From Gemmatimonadota bacterium (GTDB taxonomy: Bacteria > Gemmatimonadota > Gemmatimonadetes > Gemmatimonadales > GWC2-71-9), in the NCBI GenBank assembly GCA_003251175.1, contig QKHC01000132.1, positions 1 to 39,905 of the forward strand: a DNA stretch of 39,905 nucleotides, in the 5' to 3' direction. Position 1 is the stretch's first letter. The number at the start of each line of letters is the position of its first letter. Positions 19,570 to 28,232 of the stretch are shown here, in pieces. Under the pieces are notes generated by a model that was not told the DNA's origin, ran no database searches, and saw only the letters and a program-made list of their open reading frames with translations. The position numbers were made by a program, and so were the translations under genes.

Positions 19570-20259
19570 TCAGTCGCGGTCCGGCAGGACGATCGCGCCG
19601 ACCGGCAATCCACCTCCGGGTGCATCGAGCGCCACCCCGGTGCGAATCTGCCCGGCCGCGAGCGCCAGCGTCCCGGTGTCGAGCGCCACGGTCTTGGTCC
19701 CGGTCGCCGTCACGCGGACCTGGTAGTCACCGGCCGGGGCGGCGATGTAGGGAGATGCCGCCTTGAAATCGACTGCGGCGAGGGACGGCACCATCATGGA
19801 GATGTCCGCACCCGGCGCCGTGACGTAGATGTCCACCAAGCCCGCCGTCGGCGAGGCGTGGACCAGTCGCACCTTCACGTTGCCGGGGGCGGGCGCGCTG
19901 TTATCGTCGACCAGCAGCAACGCCTCGATCGCGGCCACGGGCCCCACGGCCAGCACCGTGTAGTCCGTCCCGCTCGTCAGAGTCGGTGTCACGCTGATCA
20001 CGGACGTGGCGCCGCCGGTCGGGCGGACCTCGATCGCGCGAGCCCCGGCGGGCACGGTGAGGTACCCCGACGCCATCTGATAGGCGACGTTGGTCAGCGC
20101 CACCGTCCCGTCCACCAGCACGTCGACATTGGGAGCGTCGGGGCTGGCATGCACGACGCGCAGTCGGGCCTGGGACGTCACGTTGGTGCCGCTGTCGTCG
20201 TTGCAGGCGGCGGCCCCGAATACGAGCGACAGGGCAGCGAGGGCAGCAGAGACTCTCAT
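19570..20259 (-). CDS. DUF4397-domain lipoprotein
   Basis: Start MRVSAALAALSLVFGAAACNDDSG (lipobox); RLRVVHASPDAPNVDVLVDGTVALTNVAYQMASGYLTVPAG and VRLVHASPTAGLVDIYV are DUF4397 repeats. Leader has an AAGGAG SD. Confidence 0.88.
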   Translation of the reverse strand: MRVSAALAALSLVFGAAACNDDSGTNVTSQARLRVVHASPDAPNVDVLVDGTVALTNVAYQMASGYLTVPAGARAIEVRPTGGATSVISVTPTLTSGTDYTVLAVGPVAAIEALLLVDDNSAPAPGNVKVRLVHASPTAGLVDIYVTAPGADISMMVPSLAAVDFKAASPYIAAPAGDYQVRVTATGTKTVALDTGTLALAAGQIRTGVALDAPGGGLPVGAIVLPDRD

Positions 20260-20283: not shown

Positions 20284-20312
20284 TTGTTGACTAATCGTAC
20301 ATATATTGTATA
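20284..20312 (-). promoter_or_regulatory. Candidate CarH/LitR-type operator: three direct repeats at exactly 11-nt spacing
   Basis: Reverse strand TATACAA (20312-20306), TGTACGA (20301-20295), TCAACAA (20290-20284); consensus TNWACRA. Overlaps the minus-strand -10 and the plus-strand TTGACT (20287-20292). Confidence 0.6.
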
Positions 20313-20333
20313 TCTTACGTTCGGTCGTGTCAA
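20305..20333 (-). promoter_or_regulatory. Sigma70-like promoter for the DUF4397 gene
   Basis: Reverse strand TTGACA (20333-20328), 17-nt spacer, TACAAT (20310-20305); about 40 nt leader to ATG at 20259. Confidence 0.7.
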
Positions 20334-20376
20334 CCGGAAGATTGACAAAGCATGAACACAAACTCCTGGCTTGGTG

Positions 20377-21297
20377 ATGGCGAAGGCTGAAGCGGCCGAT
20401 CGCGTTCCCCGCCACCCGATGCGCCTGGTGGCCCGCCGCACCGGACTGACCCCCGCCCGCCTGCGCATCTGGGAGCGCCGCTACGGGGTGGTCCGGCCGG
20501 GCCGCACCGCGGGTGGCCAGCGGCTGTACTCCGACGATGATGTCGCGCGGCTCACGCTGCTGGCTCGGGCCACGGGGGCGGGCCATGCGCTGGCACAGGT
20601 CGCACGGTTCTCGCGGGTCCAGCTCGAAGAGCTCCTGCAGCGCGACGCGCCGTCGCCCGCCGTGGCGCCGGGCGGCCCACCGGATGCCGTGCTCGTCGAG
20701 CGACTCCTGGACCTGGTGAAGCGTCTCGACGGCGCCGCTCTCGAGCGGGCGCTGCGTCGGGCGGCGCTGTCGCTCGGGCCCACGGGGTTCGCCGAGCAGG
20801 TGGCGGCACCGCTGCTGTGGGCGATCGGGGCGGCGTGGCACGCGGGCGCGCTATCCCCCGCCCACGAGCACCTCGCGTCAGCGGTGGTGAGCCGCGTGGT
20901 CACATGGCTGACCCGCCAGTTGGAGCCGGCCGAGGGCGCGCCCGCACTGGTGGTGGCCACGCCCGCGGGCGAGCGACACGAGCTGGGCGCGGCCCTGGTG
21001 GCAGCCACCGCCGCCGAGGCGGGGTGGCGCGTCATCTATCTGGGGGCAGACCTCCCGGCGGCGGACATCGCCGCCGCCGCCGCGCAGGCGCGCGCGCGCG
21101 CAGTGGCCCTCAGCCTCGTGGACGGCAGCGGCGGCCGTGCGTTGCGCGCTGAGATCGAGCGTATCGGCGCGCGTCTCGGCGCCAGCGTGCCGCTCATCAT
21201 CGGAGGCAGCGCGGCGGCGACGCTCACCGCTCCGGGGGTGCAGGTCTGCCCGACCCTATCCACATTGCGCGCCGTGCTCCAGGAGATGGCATCATGA
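20377..21297 (+). CDS. MerR-family regulator with cobalamin-binding domain (CarH/LitR-like B12 photoreceptor)
   Basis: HTH: RLVARRTGLTPARLRIWERRYGVVRPGRTAGGQRLYSDDDVARL; WHAGALSPAHEH (Wx9EH, with His after Trp); GERHELG (ExHxxG B12 motif); C-terminal Rossmann-type fold. Confidence 0.9.
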   Translation: MAKAEAADRVPRHPMRLVARRTGLTPARLRIWERRYGVVRPGRTAGGQRLYSDDDVARLTLLARATGAGHALAQVARFSRVQLEELLQRDAPSPAVAPGGPPDAVLVERLLDLVKRLDGAALERALRRAALSLGPTGFAEQVAAPLLWAIGAAWHAGALSPAHEHLASAVVSRVVTWLTRQLEPAEGAPALVVATPAGERHELGAALVAATAAEAGWRVIYLGADLPAADIAAAAAQARARAVALSLVDGSGGRALRAEIERIGARLGASVPLIIGGSAAATLTAPGVQVCPTLSTLRAVLQEMAS

Positions 21298-22166
21298 TGA
21301 CGCGGCTGCAGAAGCTCGTGCAGTGGTTCGACACCAGCCAGGCCGCCGAGGGCGGCCCAACCGACCGCGTCGACTGGGTACGGGTGATCCCCTTCCTGGG
21401 GGTGCACGCGATGTGCCTGGGGGTGATCTGGGTCGGTTGGAGCTGGACGGCGGTCGGTGTTGCCGCGGGGTTGTACGCCGTGCGCATGTTCGCGATCACC
21501 GGCTTCTACCATCGGTACTTCTCACACCGCGCCTACCGCACCTCACGCGGATGGCAGTTCGTGTTCGCCCTGCTCGGCGCCAGCGCAGCACAACGCGGAC
21601 CGTTGTGGTGGGCGGCGCACCATCGCAAGCACCATCGCCACTCCGACACCGAGCTGGACGTGCACTCGCCGCGGCACCACGGCTTCTGGTGGGCGCACAT
21701 GGGCTGGATCACGGCGGCGGGCAATTTTCCCACGGATCTCTCCCAGGTGCGCGATCTCGCCCGATACCCGGAGCTCCGGTTTCTCGACCGGTACGACATC
21801 GTCGTCCCGACCGCGCTGGCCGCGACGCTGTTCTGGGCCGGGGGCTGGCAGCTCCTGATCTGGGGGTTCTTCGTCTCAACCGTGGTGCTGTTCCATTGCA
21901 CCTGCTTCATCAACTCGCTCGCGCATCAGCTGGGCCGCCGACGCTACCCCACGCCGGACGACAGTCGGAACAGTTTCCTGCTCGCGCTGATCTGCTTCGG
22001 CGAGGGATGGCACAACAACCACCACCACTACCCGGGAGCCGCACGACAGGGGTTCCGCTGGTGGGAGATCGATCTCACGTATTACGGCCTGTGGCTGCTC
22101 GCGCGGCTGCGCATCGTCCGCGAGCTCCGCCCCGTGCCGGAGCGCGTGCTGCGAGCGGCGGCGTAG
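21294..22166 (+). CDS. Membrane fatty-acid (acyl-CoA delta-9 type) desaturase
   Basis: Three histidine boxes HRYFSH, HRKHHRH and HNNHHH; 290 aa; start overlaps the regulator stop. Confidence 0.93.
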   Translation: MMTRLQKLVQWFDTSQAAEGGPTDRVDWVRVIPFLGVHAMCLGVIWVGWSWTAVGVAAGLYAVRMFAITGFYHRYFSHRAYRTSRGWQFVFALLGASAAQRGPLWWAAHHRKHHRHSDTELDVHSPRHHGFWWAHMGWITAAGNFPTDLSQVRDLARYPELRFLDRYDIVVPTALAATLFWAGGWQLLIWGFFVSTVVLFHCTCFINSLAHQLGRRRYPTPDDSRNSFLLALICFGEGWHNNHHHYPGAARQGFRWWEIDLTYYGLWLLARLRIVRELRPVPERVLRAAA

Positions 22167-22173
22167 CGACCTC

Positions 22174-23409
22174 ATGCGGATCGCGGTCATCGGCTCCGGC
22201 ATCGCCGGGCTCGTCTGTGCCTACCGGCTGCACCCCAACCATGAGGTCACGGTCTTCGAGGCCTCCGACTGGATCGGTGGCCACATCCACACCCTCGACT
22301 TCCAGACACCGAGCGGACGCTGGGCGGTGGATACGGGCTTCATCGTCTACAACGAGCGCAACTACCCCCTGTTCACGCAGCTGCTCGACGAGCTGCGAGT
22401 CGCCTCGCAGTCGGCGACGATGAGCTTCAGCGTGCGCTGCGAGCGCACCGGCCTGGAATACAACGGGTCGTCGCTCGCGCAGCTGTTCTCCCAGCGCCGC
22501 AACCTCGTGCGCCCGTCGTTCTATCAGATGGTCGTCGACATTGCGCGGTTCAGTCGTGAGGCGCCGCTCGACCTGGCGCCCCACGCGCCCGACCTGACGA
22601 TCGGGGAGTACGTGCGCCGCCAGGGCTACTCGACGGCGTTCGTTGACAATTATCTCGTGCCTATCGGTGCGGCGATCTGGTCCCAGCCGCCCGGACGACT
22701 ACTCGACATGCCTGCCGCGTTCGTGGTGCGGTTTCTCGACAACCACGGCATGCTCTCACTGGGGGAGCGTCCACCATGGAGGACGATCGCCGGTGGCGCC
22801 ATCCAGTATGTGAATGCCCTGGTGGCGGGCTTTCGCGATCGCGTCCGGCTGGGTCAGCCGGTGCGCCGGGTTGTGCGGCACGACGACCACGTGATGGTGG
22901 ACGAGACCCCGTTCGATCACGTGATTCTCGCCTGCCATGCCGATCAGGCACTCGCGCTGCTCGCCGACCCCACGCCTGCGGAGCAGGCGGTCCTCGGCGC
23001 CCTGCCCTATCAGGCCAATTCGGTGGTGGTCCACACCGACACCTCACTGCTGCCGCGACGGCGTCGGGCGTGGGGCGGATGGAACTACCATATCCGCCGC
23101 GACACCAATCTCACCGCGCCGGTGGCGATCACCTACAACATGAACGCACTCCAGTCGCTCGATGCGCCGGAGACGTTCTGCGTCACCCTGAATCACGAAG
23201 ACGCGATCGATCCGGCCCGTGTGCTCGCCCGCCTCACGTACCATCATCCCGTTTACACGCACGCCGGCACGGCCGCCCAGGCACGCTGGAATGAAATCAG
23301 CGGCGAGCGTCGCACGCATTACTGCGGCGCGTACTGGGGCAACGGCTTCCACGAGGACGGAGTACGCAGCGCGACCGCTGTCATCGCATGGTTCGAGGGA
23401 CGCCAATGA
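22174..23409 (+). CDS. FAD-dependent amine-oxidase-like oxidoreductase (COG2907 type)
   Basis: MRIAVIGSGIAGLVCAYRLHPNHEVTVFEASDWIGGHIHTLDFQ...VDTGFIVYNERNYPLFTQLLDELRV. Confidence 0.92.
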   Translation: MRIAVIGSGIAGLVCAYRLHPNHEVTVFEASDWIGGHIHTLDFQTPSGRWAVDTGFIVYNERNYPLFTQLLDELRVASQSATMSFSVRCERTGLEYNGSSLAQLFSQRRNLVRPSFYQMVVDIARFSREAPLDLAPHAPDLTIGEYVRRQGYSTAFVDNYLVPIGAAIWSQPPGRLLDMPAAFVVRFLDNHGMLSLGERPPWRTIAGGAIQYVNALVAGFRDRVRLGQPVRRVVRHDDHVMVDETPFDHVILACHADQALALLADPTPAEQAVLGALPYQANSVVVHTDTSLLPRRRRAWGGWNYHIRRDTNLTAPVAITYNMNALQSLDAPETFCVTLNHEDAIDPARVLARLTYHHPVYTHAGTAAQARWNEISGERRTHYCGAYWGNGFHEDGVRSATAVIAWFEGRQ

Positions 23410-24179
23410 GGAGCGCCCTGTATCACGGAACTGTGCGGCACCGGCGCGCCGGACCCGTCCCGCACGCCTTCCGCTATCGCCTGTTCATGGTGTACCTCGA
23501 CCTGGCGGAGCTTCCCGGTCTGTTCGATCGGTTCTGGCTGTGGTCGGCGCGCCGCCCCGCCCCGGCCTGGTGGCGCCGCGCCGACTACCTCGGTCCGACC
23601 ACCATGCCACTCGACGACGCCGTCCGCGATGCCGTGTGCGCGCGGACCGGGCGGCGCCCGGCAGGTCCCGTCCGGATGCTCACGCATCTGCGCTATTGGG
23701 GCTACAGCATGAATCCCGTCACGTTCTACTACTGCTTCGACGGCGCCGATCGCCAGCTCGACGCGGTCGTGGCGGAGATCACGAACACACCTTGGGGCGA
23801 GCGTCACACCTACGTGCTGGCCCGCGAGCCCGGCCAGGAGCTCGGAGCGCCGGGGACACCGCTGACGGGGACGTTCGCCAAGCGCTTCCACGTGTCGCCG
23901 TTCATGAGCATGGACCACACCTACCGGTGGCGCCTCTCGATCCCGGGCCGGCGCGTGCTCGTTCACATGGAGAATTCACACCACGGGCGCCCGCTGTTCG
24001 ATGCCACCCTGGCGCTGCGACGCCGACGGCTGACCGGCCCCGCCCTCGCCGCAACGCTGGTCCGGCACCCCTGGATGACTGCGGCGGTGACCGCGGGGAT
24101 CTACTGGCAGGCGCTCCGGCTGTGGCTCAAGGGCACGCCCTTCCATGTCCATCCGGCGAAACGCGGAGTGGCCGCGTGA
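23406..24179 (+). CDS. DUF1365 family protein
   Basis: MRSALYHGTVRHRRAGPVPHAFRYRLFMVYLDLAELPGLF...HLRYWGYSMNPVTFYYCFD; ATGA overlap with the upstream gene. Confidence 0.92.
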   Translation: MRSALYHGTVRHRRAGPVPHAFRYRLFMVYLDLAELPGLFDRFWLWSARRPAPAWWRRADYLGPTTMPLDDAVRDAVCARTGRRPAGPVRMLTHLRYWGYSMNPVTFYYCFDGADRQLDAVVAEITNTPWGERHTYVLAREPGQELGAPGTPLTGTFAKRFHVSPFMSMDHTYRWRLSIPGRRVLVHMENSHHGRPLFDATLALRRRRLTGPALAATLVRHPWMTAAVTAGIYWQALRLWLKGTPFHVHPAKRGVAA

Positions 24180-25360
24180 CCTGGCTCGACGGGCTGGCCC
24201 GCCGTGCCCTGGCGAGCCGCTTGGCGCACCTGCGCTCGGGCCGCATCGTGATCGCGGACGGGCCCACCACGCAGGCCTTCGGGACCGGTACGCCGGTGGC
24301 CCGCCTCGCGGTGCTGGACCCGCGATTCTATCGCGCCGTCGCCCTGGCCGGCCACCTCGGTGCCGCAGAGGCCTATCTCAACGGCTGGTGGACCGCCGAC
24401 GACCTGACCGCGCTGGTGCGGGTCCTGGTGCGGAACCGCGAGGCCCTGGAGCAGCTGGAAGGTGGCGCTGCGCGCCTGGCCGCACCGCTGCGCTGGATCG
24501 CGCATGCGTACAACCGCAACACGCGGGGTGGCGCCCGTCGGAACATCCGCGCGCACTACGATCTCGGGAACGCGTTCTTCGCCGAGTTCCTCGACGAGAC
24601 GCTGACGTACTCCTGCGCCTTCTTCGAGCACCCCGGCGCGAGCCTGCGCGAGGCATCGATCGCGAAGTACGACCGATTGATCCGCAAACTCGGCCTCAAT
24701 GCCTCGCACCACGTGCTCGAAATCGGTACCGGCTGGGGCGGGTTTGCGCTGCACGCGGCGGCGACGTACGGATGCCGGGTCACCACGACCACGATCTCCG
24801 ACGAACAATACGCCCTCGCGCGCGAGCGGGTCGCCGCCAACGGGCTCACCGACCGCATCACGGTGCTGAATCGGGACTACCGGGATCTCACGGGCCGATT
24901 CGACCGCCTGTTGTCGATCGAGATGATCGAGGCCGTCGGGCACGAGTACTACGAGACATTCTTCGCGAAGTGTGCGGCGTTGCTGGCGCCGGGAGGGCGC
25001 ATGGCGCTCCAGGCGATCACCATCCTCGACCGATACTACGATGCCGCGCGACACGAGGTGGACTTCATCAAGCGCTACATCTTTCCGGGCAGCAACATCC
25101 CGGCCGCCGGCCCCCTGCGCGACGCCGCCCGGCGCGCCGGCCTCGACCTGCAACACGCCGAAGAAATCGGACCGCACTACGCCGAAACCCTCAGCCGCTG
25201 GCGACGGAACTTCCTGGAGCGGTGGGATCACATCCGCGCCATGGGGTTCAGCGAAGAGTTCCGCCGGCTGTGGGAGTTCTATTTCGCGTATTGCGAGGGC
25301 GGCTTCCGCGAAGGCCTTCTGAACGACGTGCAGATGATCTTCGCACGGAGCGCGCGGTGA
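24176..25360 (+). CDS. Cyclopropane-fatty-acid-synthase-family SAM methyltransferase
   Basis: GTG start overlapping the upstream stop; NIRAHYDLGNAFFAEFLDETLTYSCAFFEHPG; VLEIGTGWGGFALHAA; MALQAITILDRYYDAARHEVDFIKRYIFPG. Confidence 0.93.
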   Translation: MTWLDGLARRALASRLAHLRSGRIVIADGPTTQAFGTGTPVARLAVLDPRFYRAVALAGHLGAAEAYLNGWWTADDLTALVRVLVRNREALEQLEGGAARLAAPLRWIAHAYNRNTRGGARRNIRAHYDLGNAFFAEFLDETLTYSCAFFEHPGASLREASIAKYDRLIRKLGLNASHHVLEIGTGWGGFALHAAATYGCRVTTTTISDEQYALARERVAANGLTDRITVLNRDYRDLTGRFDRLLSIEMIEAVGHEYYETFFAKCAALLAPGGRMALQAITILDRYYDAARHEVDFIKRYIFPGSNIPAAGPLRDAARRAGLDLQHAEEIGPHYAETLSRWRRNFLERWDHIRAMGFSEEFRRLWEFYFAYCEGGFREGLLNDVQMIFARSAR

Positions 25361-25394
25361 GCCGGTCCGTGGTCCACCCGACGGAATCGACGCC

Positions 25395-26192
25395 GTGAGT
25401 GGCGGGCTGCGGGAGCTCGTCCTGCCGGCCTGGGGCGCGCTCGCGCTGGTCCTCGCGCTGCTGTGGTGGCGGCAGACGCGCACCCGCAACGCGACCGCAG
25501 TGGACGTGTGGTGGTCCCTGTCACTGGCCACACTCGCCCTGTGGTACGCCATCCGCACCGAGGGCGTCGCCCGCTGGCCCGTGGCGCTGCTCGCGGCAGT
25601 CTGGGCCACGCGGCTCGCCTGGCACCTCTGGAGCGATCGGGTACGGGGTCGCATGGACGAGGACGGCCGGTACGCCGCCCTGCGGGCTCACTGGGGTCCC
25701 CGCGCTGCCGCCGGGTTCTTCCTCGTGTATCAGGGTCAGGCGCTGGTCGCCACGGTGTTTTCGCTGCCGATCCTCGAGGCGATGGTGCTCGGACGATTCG
25801 ACCGGTGGCTGGTCGCCGGGGCCGCGATCTGGGCGGTGGCCGTGGTGGGTGAGGCGGTGGCCGATCGGCAGCTCGCGCAGTTCCGCGCCGACCCAGCCAA
25901 TCGCGGCCGAACCTGTCGCACCGGCTGGTGGCGATACTCGCGGCACCCGAACTACTTCTTCGAGTGGCTCCACTGGTGGAGCTACGTGCTGATCAGCCAC
26001 GGTGCATGGCTCGCGTGGCTGGGACCGGCGCTGATGCTGGTGTTCCTGTTCCGGGTGACGGGAATCCCGTACACCGAGGCGCAGGCGCTGCGGAGTCGCG
26101 GCGACGACTACCGCCGCTACCAGCGCGACACCAGCATCTTCGTTCCGTGGTTCCCCCGGCGGGCGACTGGCGGACCGGCGCCCCGCCAATGA
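25395..26192 (+). CDS. DUF1295 / steroid 5-alpha-reductase-like membrane protein
   Basis: Polytopic; WWRYSRHPNYFFEWLHWWSYVL ... FRVTGIPYTEAQALRSRGDDYRRYQRDTSIFVPWFP. Confidence 0.92.
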   Translation: MSGGLRELVLPAWGALALVLALLWWRQTRTRNATAVDVWWSLSLATLALWYAIRTEGVARWPVALLAAVWATRLAWHLWSDRVRGRMDEDGRYAALRAHWGPRAAAGFFLVYQGQALVATVFSLPILEAMVLGRFDRWLVAGAAIWAVAVVGEAVADRQLAQFRADPANRGRTCRTGWWRYSRHPNYFFEWLHWWSYVLISHGAWLAWLGPALMLVFLFRVTGIPYTEAQALRSRGDDYRRYQRDTSIFVPWFPRRATGGPAPRQ

Positions 26193-27190
26193 GTCAGGGC
26201 CTGGGCCTGACCCTGGCTGAGGGCGGACGCCTGCCGCTGGGAATGCTGCGCTGGGGTATTCGCCGACTGTTGCGACGGCGCCTGCGCGACGAACACCGCC
26301 GCCGCCGCGACCCGCTGCGCGAGCTCTCCGACGGCCCGCTGGCGCTTGTCCCCCACATCGCCAACGCACAGCACTACGAGCTCCCACCGGCCTTTTTCGA
26401 GCTCGTCCTCGGTCCGCGCCTGAAGTACAGCAGCGCGTACTGGCCAGCGGGCGTCGAGACCCTGACGGCCGCGGAAACGGCGATGCTCGAGCTCACCCGG
26501 GAGCGAGCAGAACTCGCTGACGGCCAACGCATCCTCGAGCTCGGGTGCGGGTGGGGCAGCCTCAGCCTGGCGCTGGCACAGTGGTTTCCGGCCGCGCGGA
26601 TCGTCGCGCTGTCCAACTCCGCCGTCCAGCGGCGGCACATCGAAAGCCGGGCGGCGGCGAACCTGTCGGTCGTCACCGCCGACATGAACCGGTTCGACAC
26701 CGACCAGCGGTTCGACCGAATCATCAGCGTCGAGATGTTCGAGCACATGCGAAACTACCGGGAGCTGCTGCGGCGCATTGCGGGCTGGCTCGAGCCGGGC
26801 GGCACCCTGTTCGTCCACGTCTTCTGCCATGCCCGGTTGACCTACCCCTTCGAGCGGGACGGGGAGGATGACTGGATGGCCCGCTACTTCTTCAGCGGCG
26901 GCCTGATGCCCGCTTTCGACCTGCTGCCTCGTTTTCAGGAAGACCTGCACCTCGAGCGTCAATGGGCCGTGGGCGGGGCGCACTACCAGCGCACGGCGCG
27001 AGCCTGGCGGGAGAACCTCGAGCAGCACCGCACGGCCGTGCTGGCGGTGCTGCGCGACACCTACGGCGCAGCACAGGCCGAGCTGTGGTTCCAGCGCTGG
27101 CGCCTGTTCTTCCTCGCGTGTGAGGAGCTGTTCGGCTTCCGCGGGGGCACCGAGTGGCTGGTGGGACACTACCGCTTTGCCCGCTCGTGA
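26189..27190 (+). CDS. CFA-synthase-family SAM methyltransferase, coclaurine N-methyltransferase-like subgroup
   Basis: ATGA overlap with DUF1295; NAQHYELPPAFFELVLGPRLKYSSAYW; ILELGCGWGSLSLALAQWFP; LFVHVFCHARLTYPFERDGEDDWMARYFFSGGLMPAFDLL. Confidence 0.9.
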   Translation: MSQGLGLTLAEGGRLPLGMLRWGIRRLLRRRLRDEHRRRRDPLRELSDGPLALVPHIANAQHYELPPAFFELVLGPRLKYSSAYWPAGVETLTAAETAMLELTRERAELADGQRILELGCGWGSLSLALAQWFPAARIVALSNSAVQRRHIESRAAANLSVVTADMNRFDTDQRFDRIISVEMFEHMRNYRELLRRIAGWLEPGGTLFVHVFCHARLTYPFERDGEDDWMARYFFSGGLMPAFDLLPRFQEDLHLERQWAVGGAHYQRTARAWRENLEQHRTAVLAVLRDTYGAAQAELWFQRWRLFFLACEELFGFRGGTEWLVGHYRFARS

Positions 27191-27254: not shown

Positions 27255-28232
27255 ATGACCCCATGGCGTTTGCTGATCCTGGCCGCCGCCTTCCCGGCGC
27301 TGCTGAGCGCCCAGACGCTCGACATCCGCGAGTGGCCGGTCCCGTGGCCACAGACCTTCACGCGCGACCCCGATGTGGGCCCCGATGGCCGGGTGTGGAT
27401 CTGCGGCATGAACGGCAACTACCTCGCGGTGATGGACACCACCAGCGGCGATTTCCGGCGTTACGCGCTGCCCGACCCCGCCAATCCGCACAATCTGATC
27501 GTCGACGACCGTGGCGCGGTGTGGTATTCCGCCAACCGCGGCGCCCACATTGGCAGGCTCGATCCCGCCACGGGTGCGGTCACTCAGTACCCGATGCCCG
27601 ACCCCGCCGCACGCGACCCGCACACGCTGGCGTGGGATCCGGATGGCGACATCTGGTTCACCGTGCAGGGCGGCAACTTCGTGGGCAAGCTGACCGTGGC
27701 CACGGGCGCCGTGCGCCTCATCGCCGTCCCGACACCCAACGCCCGGCCCTACGGCATCGTCGTCGCACCCGATGGGCGCCCGTGGATTGCACTGTTCGGG
27801 ACGAACAAGCTGGCCACCGTCGACCCCGCCACCTTCGCACTGCGCGAAGTCGCGCTGCCGCGCACTGACGCGCGGCCCCGGCGCCTCGGGCTCACCTCCG
27901 ACGGGCGGGTCTGGTACGGTGACTGGGCCGCGGGTTACCTGGGTGTGTACGACCCCGAGGCCGGCACGATCGACGAATGGGCGACGCCCGCGGGTGAACG
28001 GTCCCGTCCCTACGCGCTCACGATCGACTCCCGCGATCGGATCTGGATCGTCGAGACGGGCGTGCAACCCAACCGGCTGGTGGGATTCGACCCCGCCAGG
28101 CGCGAGTTCTTCGCGGCGACCGACATCCCGTCGGGCGCCGGCACCGTCCGGCACATGGTCTTCGCGGCGCGGCAGAACGCGATCTGGTTCGGCACGGACG
28201 CCAACACCCTCGGCCGCGCGCGGCTGCCGTGA
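27255..28232 (+). CDS. Secreted virginiamycin-B-lyase-like (Vgb/SMP-30-type) beta-propeller
   Basis: Signal peptide LLILAAAFPALLSAQ; repeated DGRVWIC / DDRGAVWYS / DPDGDIWFT / DGRVWYG / DSRDRIWIV strands. Confidence 0.85.
   Translation: MTPWRLLILAAAFPALLSAQTLDIREWPVPWPQTFTRDPDVGPDGRVWICGMNGNYLAVMDTTSGDFRRYALPDPANPHNLIVDDRGAVWYSANRGAHIGRLDPATGAVTQYPMPDPAARDPHTLAWDPDGDIWFTVQGGNFVGKLTVATGAVRLIAVPTPNARPYGIVVAPDGRPWIALFGTNKLATVDPATFALREVALPRTDARPRRLGLTSDGRVWYGDWAAGYLGVYDPEAGTIDEWATPAGERSRPYALTIDSRDRIWIVETGVQPNRLVGFDPARREFFAATDIPSGAGTVRHMVFAARQNAIWFGTDANTLGRARLP

Follow-up and report, generated by a model that had tools for sequence, protein, structure and literature searches.

We analysed a 39,905-nt stretch of DNA from a Gemmatimonadota bacterium (GenBank assembly GCA_003251175.1, contig QKHC01000132.1; hereafter the window), which carries a seven-gene operon headed by a CarH-type MerR/B12-binding regulator. 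The operon is probably autoregulated, derepressed by light and devoted to the synthesis of dimethylated furan fatty acids (FuFA), which would protect membranes from singlet oxygen. Gene content, signature residues and the conservation of both the operator motif and the gene cassette were observed directly. The best-known role of CarH-type receptors is to switch carotenoid genes; if the proposed function is correct, B12 light sensing would here have a direct link to a lipid antioxidant. The window makes up one contig of a 2.2-Mb metagenome-assembled genome (MAG) that is 56% complete.

An open reading frame (ORF) check of the window returned seven open, co-directional ORFs on the + strand at 20377-27190, as a sequence-only reading of the same DNA had claimed. 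Pfam searches with the seven proteins agreed with the families it had named: MerR with both B12-binding domains, FA_desaturase, Amino_oxidase, DUF1365, CMAS, DUF1295 and a second CMAS. The genes of the operon are:

20377-21297, + strand: CarH-type MerR/B12-binding regulator (TTG at 20371 is an alternative start)
21294-22166, + strand: stearoyl-CoA-type fatty acid desaturase
22174-23409, + strand: UfaD-type flavin adenine dinucleotide (FAD) oxidoreductase, COG2907 (family role: PMC7380195)
23406-24179, + strand: UfaO-type DUF1365 protein, predicted furan-forming monooxygenase (role: PMC7380195)
24176-25360, + strand: UfaM-type S-adenosylmethionine (SAM)-dependent acyl methyltransferase, CMAS; GTG start
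25395-26192, + strand: DUF1295 membrane protein; GTG start, model fold sterol/steroid-reductase-like
26189-27190, + strand: FufM-type SAM-dependent methyltransferase, coclaurine-N-methyltransferase-like (FufM role: PMC7380195)

All four of the claimed 4-nt start/stop overlaps were real (ATGA at 21294, ATGA at 23406, GTGA at 24176 and ATGA at 26189), and the remaining two junctions were gaps of 7 nt and 34 nt. Because one 7-kb piece holds all known dimethyl-FuFA genes together with two candidate additional enzymes, the desaturase and DUF1295, pathway and light control are addressable in one construct.

The gene-neighbourhood search proposed earlier was made across 395 Gemmatimonadota genomes, 53 of which carry DUF1365. 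Nearly all of 51 fetched loci retained the order UfaD-UfaO-UfaM, usually with desaturase, DUF1295 and FufM genes beside it; the desaturase, which had been suggested as part of a self-contained pathway, proved to be a conserved cassette member. Given this conserved order in relatives, the arrangement of the operon is far beyond chance. CarH and its operator often stood at the head of the cassette or nearby, and a CarH-type gene lay within about 10 kb of the cassette at 18 loci, the window counted. CarH was present in 37 of the 53 UfaO-bearing genomes versus 117 of the 342 others (Fisher p=1.4e-6, uncorrected for ancestry).

The CarH-type regulator and its predicted operator

Comparison with solved structures gave Thermus CarH as the best relatives of the regulator, and its MerR_1, B12-binding_2 (four-helix) and B12-binding (Rossmann) domains all scored over the Pfam cut-off. 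The GxxW, Wx9EH, GxxH and GxxxP motifs have been reported as marks of light-responsive cobalamin domains (PMC11796333). All four were present in the regulator: GAAW(H) and EH within GAAWHAGALSPAHEH for GxxW/Wx9EH, GERH for GxxH and GADLP for GxxxP. The Trp, Glu, His and the cobalt-ligand His were invariant in 11 regulator homologues from such neighbourhoods. CarH of Thermus, Bacillus and Myxococcus shares the domain architecture, Wx9EH and the cobalt-ligand His, and likewise has an 11-bp direct-repeat operator overlapping the promoter (PMC8156234). Those proteins control carotenoid genes whereas the window regulator heads a lipid-modification cassette, and identity to them is moderate. By analogy with these proteins, we infer that the regulator binds adenosylcobalamin (AdoCbl) and responds to light.

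The same motifs bear on whether the B12 domain might sense B12 or redox state instead of light, with the operon following cobalamin status. A purely B12-dependent regulator would likewise release the operon when AdoCbl runs short. However, Wx9EH and both flanking light-specific cobalamin-domain motifs are present (PMC11796333), and photolyase is among the neighbours in relatives; we consider this alternative highly improbable.

Candidate regulatory sites were located upstream of the regulator gene:

20284-20316, - strand: candidate CarH operator array, three tandem 11-mers AAGATATACAA, TATATGTACGA and TTAGTCAACAA
20287-20316, + strand: candidate sigma-70-type operon promoter TTGACT-N18-TATCTT, a consensus match only, inside the operator array
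20342-20358, + strand: predicted CarH operator, exact 11-bp direct-repeat pair TTGACAAAGCATGAACA (TNNACA-N5-TNNACA)

Thermus CarH binds tandem 11-bp repeats of the form nAnnTnnACAn (PMC8156234). The array matched 13 of the 15 fixed positions of this pattern, and none of 200 dinucleotide shuffles was equally good. Its first base, 20284, is where the sequence-only reading had set the start of the operon region.

The exact repeat pair was the element conserved in relatives. TNNACA-N5-TNNACA occurred upstream of carH at 16 of the 18 Gemmatimonadota loci with CarH near the cassette (shuffles: mean 0.16, max 2), and direct repeats of control periods were found at 0-3 loci each. The window copy stands at the same distance as in the relatives, 35 nt from the ATG at 20377. 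Its strict TTGACA form, TTGACANNNNNTNNACA, occurred a single time in the whole MAG, at the window operator. The density of the exact repeat was 1.73 per kb in promoter zones versus 0.019 elsewhere, and promoter zones contained it in 21 of 37 operons of CarH-bearing genomes versus 0 of 15 operons of genomes without detected CarH. A palindrome near 20299, TACATATATTGTA, was set aside as an operator, since conservation in relatives falls on the 11-bp direct repeat.

At 11 of the 18 carH promoters (L045, L050, L051, L056, L059, L060, L061, L065, L077, L078 and L081), a TTGACA-N16..18-TANNNT site ended 3-9 nt before the start codon, with CarH repeats over the -35 box and spacer. The first CarH repeat at these loci is itself the -35 hexamer of the promoter-like site. 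A -10 box ending so close to the start of carH predicts a leaderless, self-repressed carH message. The window operon promoter more likely lies at 20287-20316, within the other array.

Whether control reaches beyond carH depends on where the repeats lie. If the regulator governed solely its own gene and a divergent DUF4397 gene, the cassette would be expressed independent of light. In favour of this, many relatives have CarH divergent from the cassette, several of the repeats are confined to the carH promoter, and Xanthomonadaceae have ECF/RskA at the head of the same cassette. Against this restricted control, the desaturase gene of the window lies on the strand of the regulator gene and begins within its last 4 nt. 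The repeat also lies less than 300 nt upstream of cassettes with no adjacent CarH, where the CarH gene is elsewhere in the genome (L053, L055, L069 and L076), and 74-99 nt upstream of cassettes whose CarH is 5-7 kb distant (L056, L059, L071 and L074). Control confined to carH and its divergent neighbour is very unlikely.

For the light-derepressed operon that we favour, B12 binding, light response and dark repression are modelled on characterized relatives. Without light, a CarH-type tetramer carrying AdoCbl would occupy the 11-bp direct repeats and repress the operon, including its own gene. Light would break the Co-C bond, the tetramer would dissociate and the operon would be transcribed. 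The earlier claims of a CarH/LitR-like MerR-B12 regulator, and of B12 light sensing that derepresses a lipid operon, held in the parts that sequence can test, with a full AdoCbl/light signature, a conserved CarH-type operator at the promoter and a lipid pathway.

Enzymes and predicted product

The pathway worked out in Rhodobacter sphaeroides and Rhodopseudomonas palustris begins with UfaM, which converts cis-vaccenoyl chains to 11Me-12t-18:1 by methylation. UfaD forms the 10t,12t diene, the DUF1365 protein UfaO puts in O2-derived oxygen to give the furan, and FufM, tested on a furan fatty acid as substrate, attaches a second methyl; these families have been shown to yield 9M5- and 9D5-FuFA (PMC7380195). 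The window has UfaM, UfaD, UfaO and FufM types, with the D-O-M order of RPA2571-2569. The furan-pathway set of CMAS methyltransferase, COG2907-type FAD oxidoreductase and DUF1365 protein thus co-occurs in it, and conserved or catalytic motifs were intact in every operon enzyme.

The last gene had been read as a second methyltransferase of the cyclopropane fatty acid (CFA) synthase family. Its CMAS membership stood by Pfam, but an ordinary CFA synthase was rejected because the coclaurine N-methyltransferase (CNMT) match was far better: the product matched 6GKV, a plant coclaurine-type N-methyltransferase, at E=1.8e-58 versus E=4e-28 for E. coli Cfa. It is 29% identical to the window UfaM-type protein, in keeping with FufM, which is CNMT-like and about 26% identical to UfaM. 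FufM shares 37.9% identity with its plant homologue AT4G33110 (PMC10940516).

The UfaM-type protein belongs to the CMAS family and matched E. coli Cfa over its full length. We compared it at the bicarbonate-site residues of E. coli Cfa, C139, E239, H266, I268 and Y317. E, I and Y were kept and the Cys position was variable (Cys in the window). All 104 operon homologues had Gln in place of H266, a departure from the cyclopropane synthase site.

The desaturase is of the stearoyl-CoA desaturase (SCD) type. An AlphaFold model of UfaO had a predicted local distance difference test score of 94 and a beta-rich fold. It matched fatty-acid-binding protein, lipocalin and nitrobindin barrels only weakly (E 0.007 or worse), too weakly to indicate a mechanism, and a search by sequence found no solved homologue. 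The high-confidence model of DUF1295 was a bundle of membrane helices, with weak nearest matches (E 0.002 or worse) to delta14-sterol and 5-alpha steroid reductases.

In the proposed pathway, with reaction order and product patterned on characterized relatives, the desaturase would provide a cis-monounsaturated acyl chain and UfaM would methylate this phospholipid-borne chain to a methyl trans-alkene. UfaD would then desaturate it to a conjugated methyl diene, UfaO with O2 would close the furan ring, and FufM would add the second ring methyl. The resulting furan phospholipid would quench light-generated singlet oxygen. DUF1295 may be an accessory membrane enzyme. A delta-9 desaturase, as the SCD type suggests, would give 7D5 or 7D7 FuFA and not the 9D5 of Rhodopseudomonas. 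In Chlamydomonas, a matching gene set of CFA, CNMT-like, DUF1365, DUF1295 and DUF2177 is induced by singlet oxygen (PMC4067076).

The sequence-only reading had left the lipid as a methyl-, cyclopropane- or furan-type fatty acid. The lipid-modification pathway stood, and from the joint presence of DUF1365/UfaO and a FufM-type methyltransferase we infer a dimethyl furan fatty acid as the operon product.

Several points weigh against a light-controlled furan operon. The regulator scored 129 bits with the NCBIfam CarH equivalog model NF052513, under the cut-off of 400, and is therefore called CarH-type and not filed as a CarH equivalog. The exact repeat was missing in 16 of the 37 operons of CarH-bearing genomes, and the window copy is without the -10 box seen at that spacing in 11 of the 18 relatives. 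Among the MAG-wide checks, which were single-family searches, cobalamin adenosyltransferase PF01923 was not found, a null that is uninformative at 56% completeness. The Ufa/Fuf assignments were made by family and published description. Plant fusions of CFA and FAD-oxidoreductase (COG2907-like) domains include cyclopropane synthases, so the COG2907 and CMAS pair alone is no proof of furan chemistry.

These plant proteins, together with the full-length Cfa match of the first methyltransferase and its retained E, I and Y, would fit an operon that makes cyclopropane or solely methyl-branched fatty acids under the same CarH-type control, with other roles for the DUF1365 and FAD proteins. We regard such a product as unlikely. 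The only tested role of DUF1365/UfaO is furan formation (PMC7380195) and it adjoins UfaM in nearly all loci, the bicarbonate-site His is replaced throughout the operon homologues, and the cassette ends with a FufM-type enzyme.

A wider proposal extends dimethyl-FuFA synthesis under CarH-type control beyond the window. AdoCbl light sensing in Gemmatimonadota might be dedicated to a complete, carotenoid-independent dimethyl-FuFA cassette, in which DUF1295 would be an undescribed NADPH-type membrane reductase for the pathway or for furan-lipid repair after singlet oxygen. We consider this possible but doubtful.

Distribution and related systems

The cassette extends well beyond Gemmatimonadota. 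All four Ufa/Fuf genes were present at 58 of 80 named FufM loci, which come from many phyla, and 33 of the 80, from several phyla, had the exact order des-ufaD-ufaO-ufaM-DUF1295-fufM. DUF1295 stood beside FufM in 65 of the 80, many of them without UfaD/UfaO nearby. DUF1295 as an obligate FufM partner was dropped because at several Gemmatimonadota loci only one of the two is present.

The furan pathway of R. sphaeroides and R. palustris uses the same four protein families, and RPA2571-2569 has the UfaD-UfaO-UfaM order of the window (PMC7380195). In those species ufaM or fufM is elsewhere, whereas the window has all in one operon with the desaturase and DUF1295. Regulation in R. sphaeroides is by an ECF/ChrR singlet-oxygen system, in contrast to the CarH-type regulator. 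Cassettes of Xanthomonadaceae and of plasmid pYH12207-1 have a six-gene order identical to the window. In Xanthomonadaceae, an ECF sigma factor and an RskA-type anti-sigma factor stand ahead of the cassette (loci include L117, L119, L145, L097, L101, L107, L116 and L138), and the plasmid copy lies near photolyase and lipocalin genes. This plasmid, a mobilizable one of Acinetobacter piscicola (L166), carries the complete cassette with a cryptochrome/photolyase-family gene and an IS3 transposase nearby. A Shinella plasmid has DUF1295 and FufM downstream of ECF/ChrR. One lipid cassette has been placed under differing light- or stress-regulators across phyla.

The closest precedent comes from Pseudomonas, where ufaM is under class II LitR, a regulator that differs in not binding B12. 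In P. putida and P. mendocina a MerR-family light regulator stands beside ufaM and an FAD-dependent oxidoreductase gene, as in the window, and both genes are light-induced (PMC9758184). The second B12-binding domain is missing from class II LitR, which works together with a LOV protein, whereas the two B12 domains and the complete set of AdoCbl residues are present in the window regulator. The Pseudomonas region has a photolyase and an SDR gene, both absent from the window. We found no literature linking CarH with furan fatty acids, or FuFA with Gemmatimonadota, in a search that most subscription journals lay outside of. The parts are known; their pairing, a CarH-type switch with an apparently complete dimethyl-FuFA set, had no description in the searchable literature.

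The absence of photolyase noted by the sequence-only reading is correct within the window. It fails as a general picture, since in several relatives both CarH and a class II photolyase lie close to the operon. Photolyase PF03441 was not found in the MAG, a null that is uninformative at its completeness and weak because PF03441 also misses the class II photolyases of relatives. The MAG has one SQS_PSY-family gene, phytoene and squalene synthase not being told apart, and no carotenoid genes were recognised in the surrounding 2.7 kb. Recurrent cassette neighbours in Gemmatimonadota were DUF2177, fasciclin, class II photolyase and an SDR/DUF2867 protein. At L034, L037, L046, L047 and L082 a conserved neighbour resembles a DUF523-DUF1722 protein (RudS type by eye); RudS has been reported from light-responsive operons (PMC11417400).

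Neighbouring features

A virginiamycin-B-lyase/SMP-30-type beta-propeller gene (27255-28232, + strand) starts 65 nt past the last operon gene. No terminator-like site was found between them, where the terminator scan was at shuffle level, and the gene may be co-transcribed with the operon. On the other side of the regulatory region lie:

19570-20256, - strand: divergent DUF4397 gene, sharing a common regulatory region with the operon
20305-20333, - strand: candidate divergent promoter TTGACA-N17-TACAAT (11/12), a consensus match only, overlapping the operator array

Because this near-consensus promoter overlaps the array, the DUF4397 gene is a possible second CarH target. In relatives the gene divergent from carH is often fasciclin.

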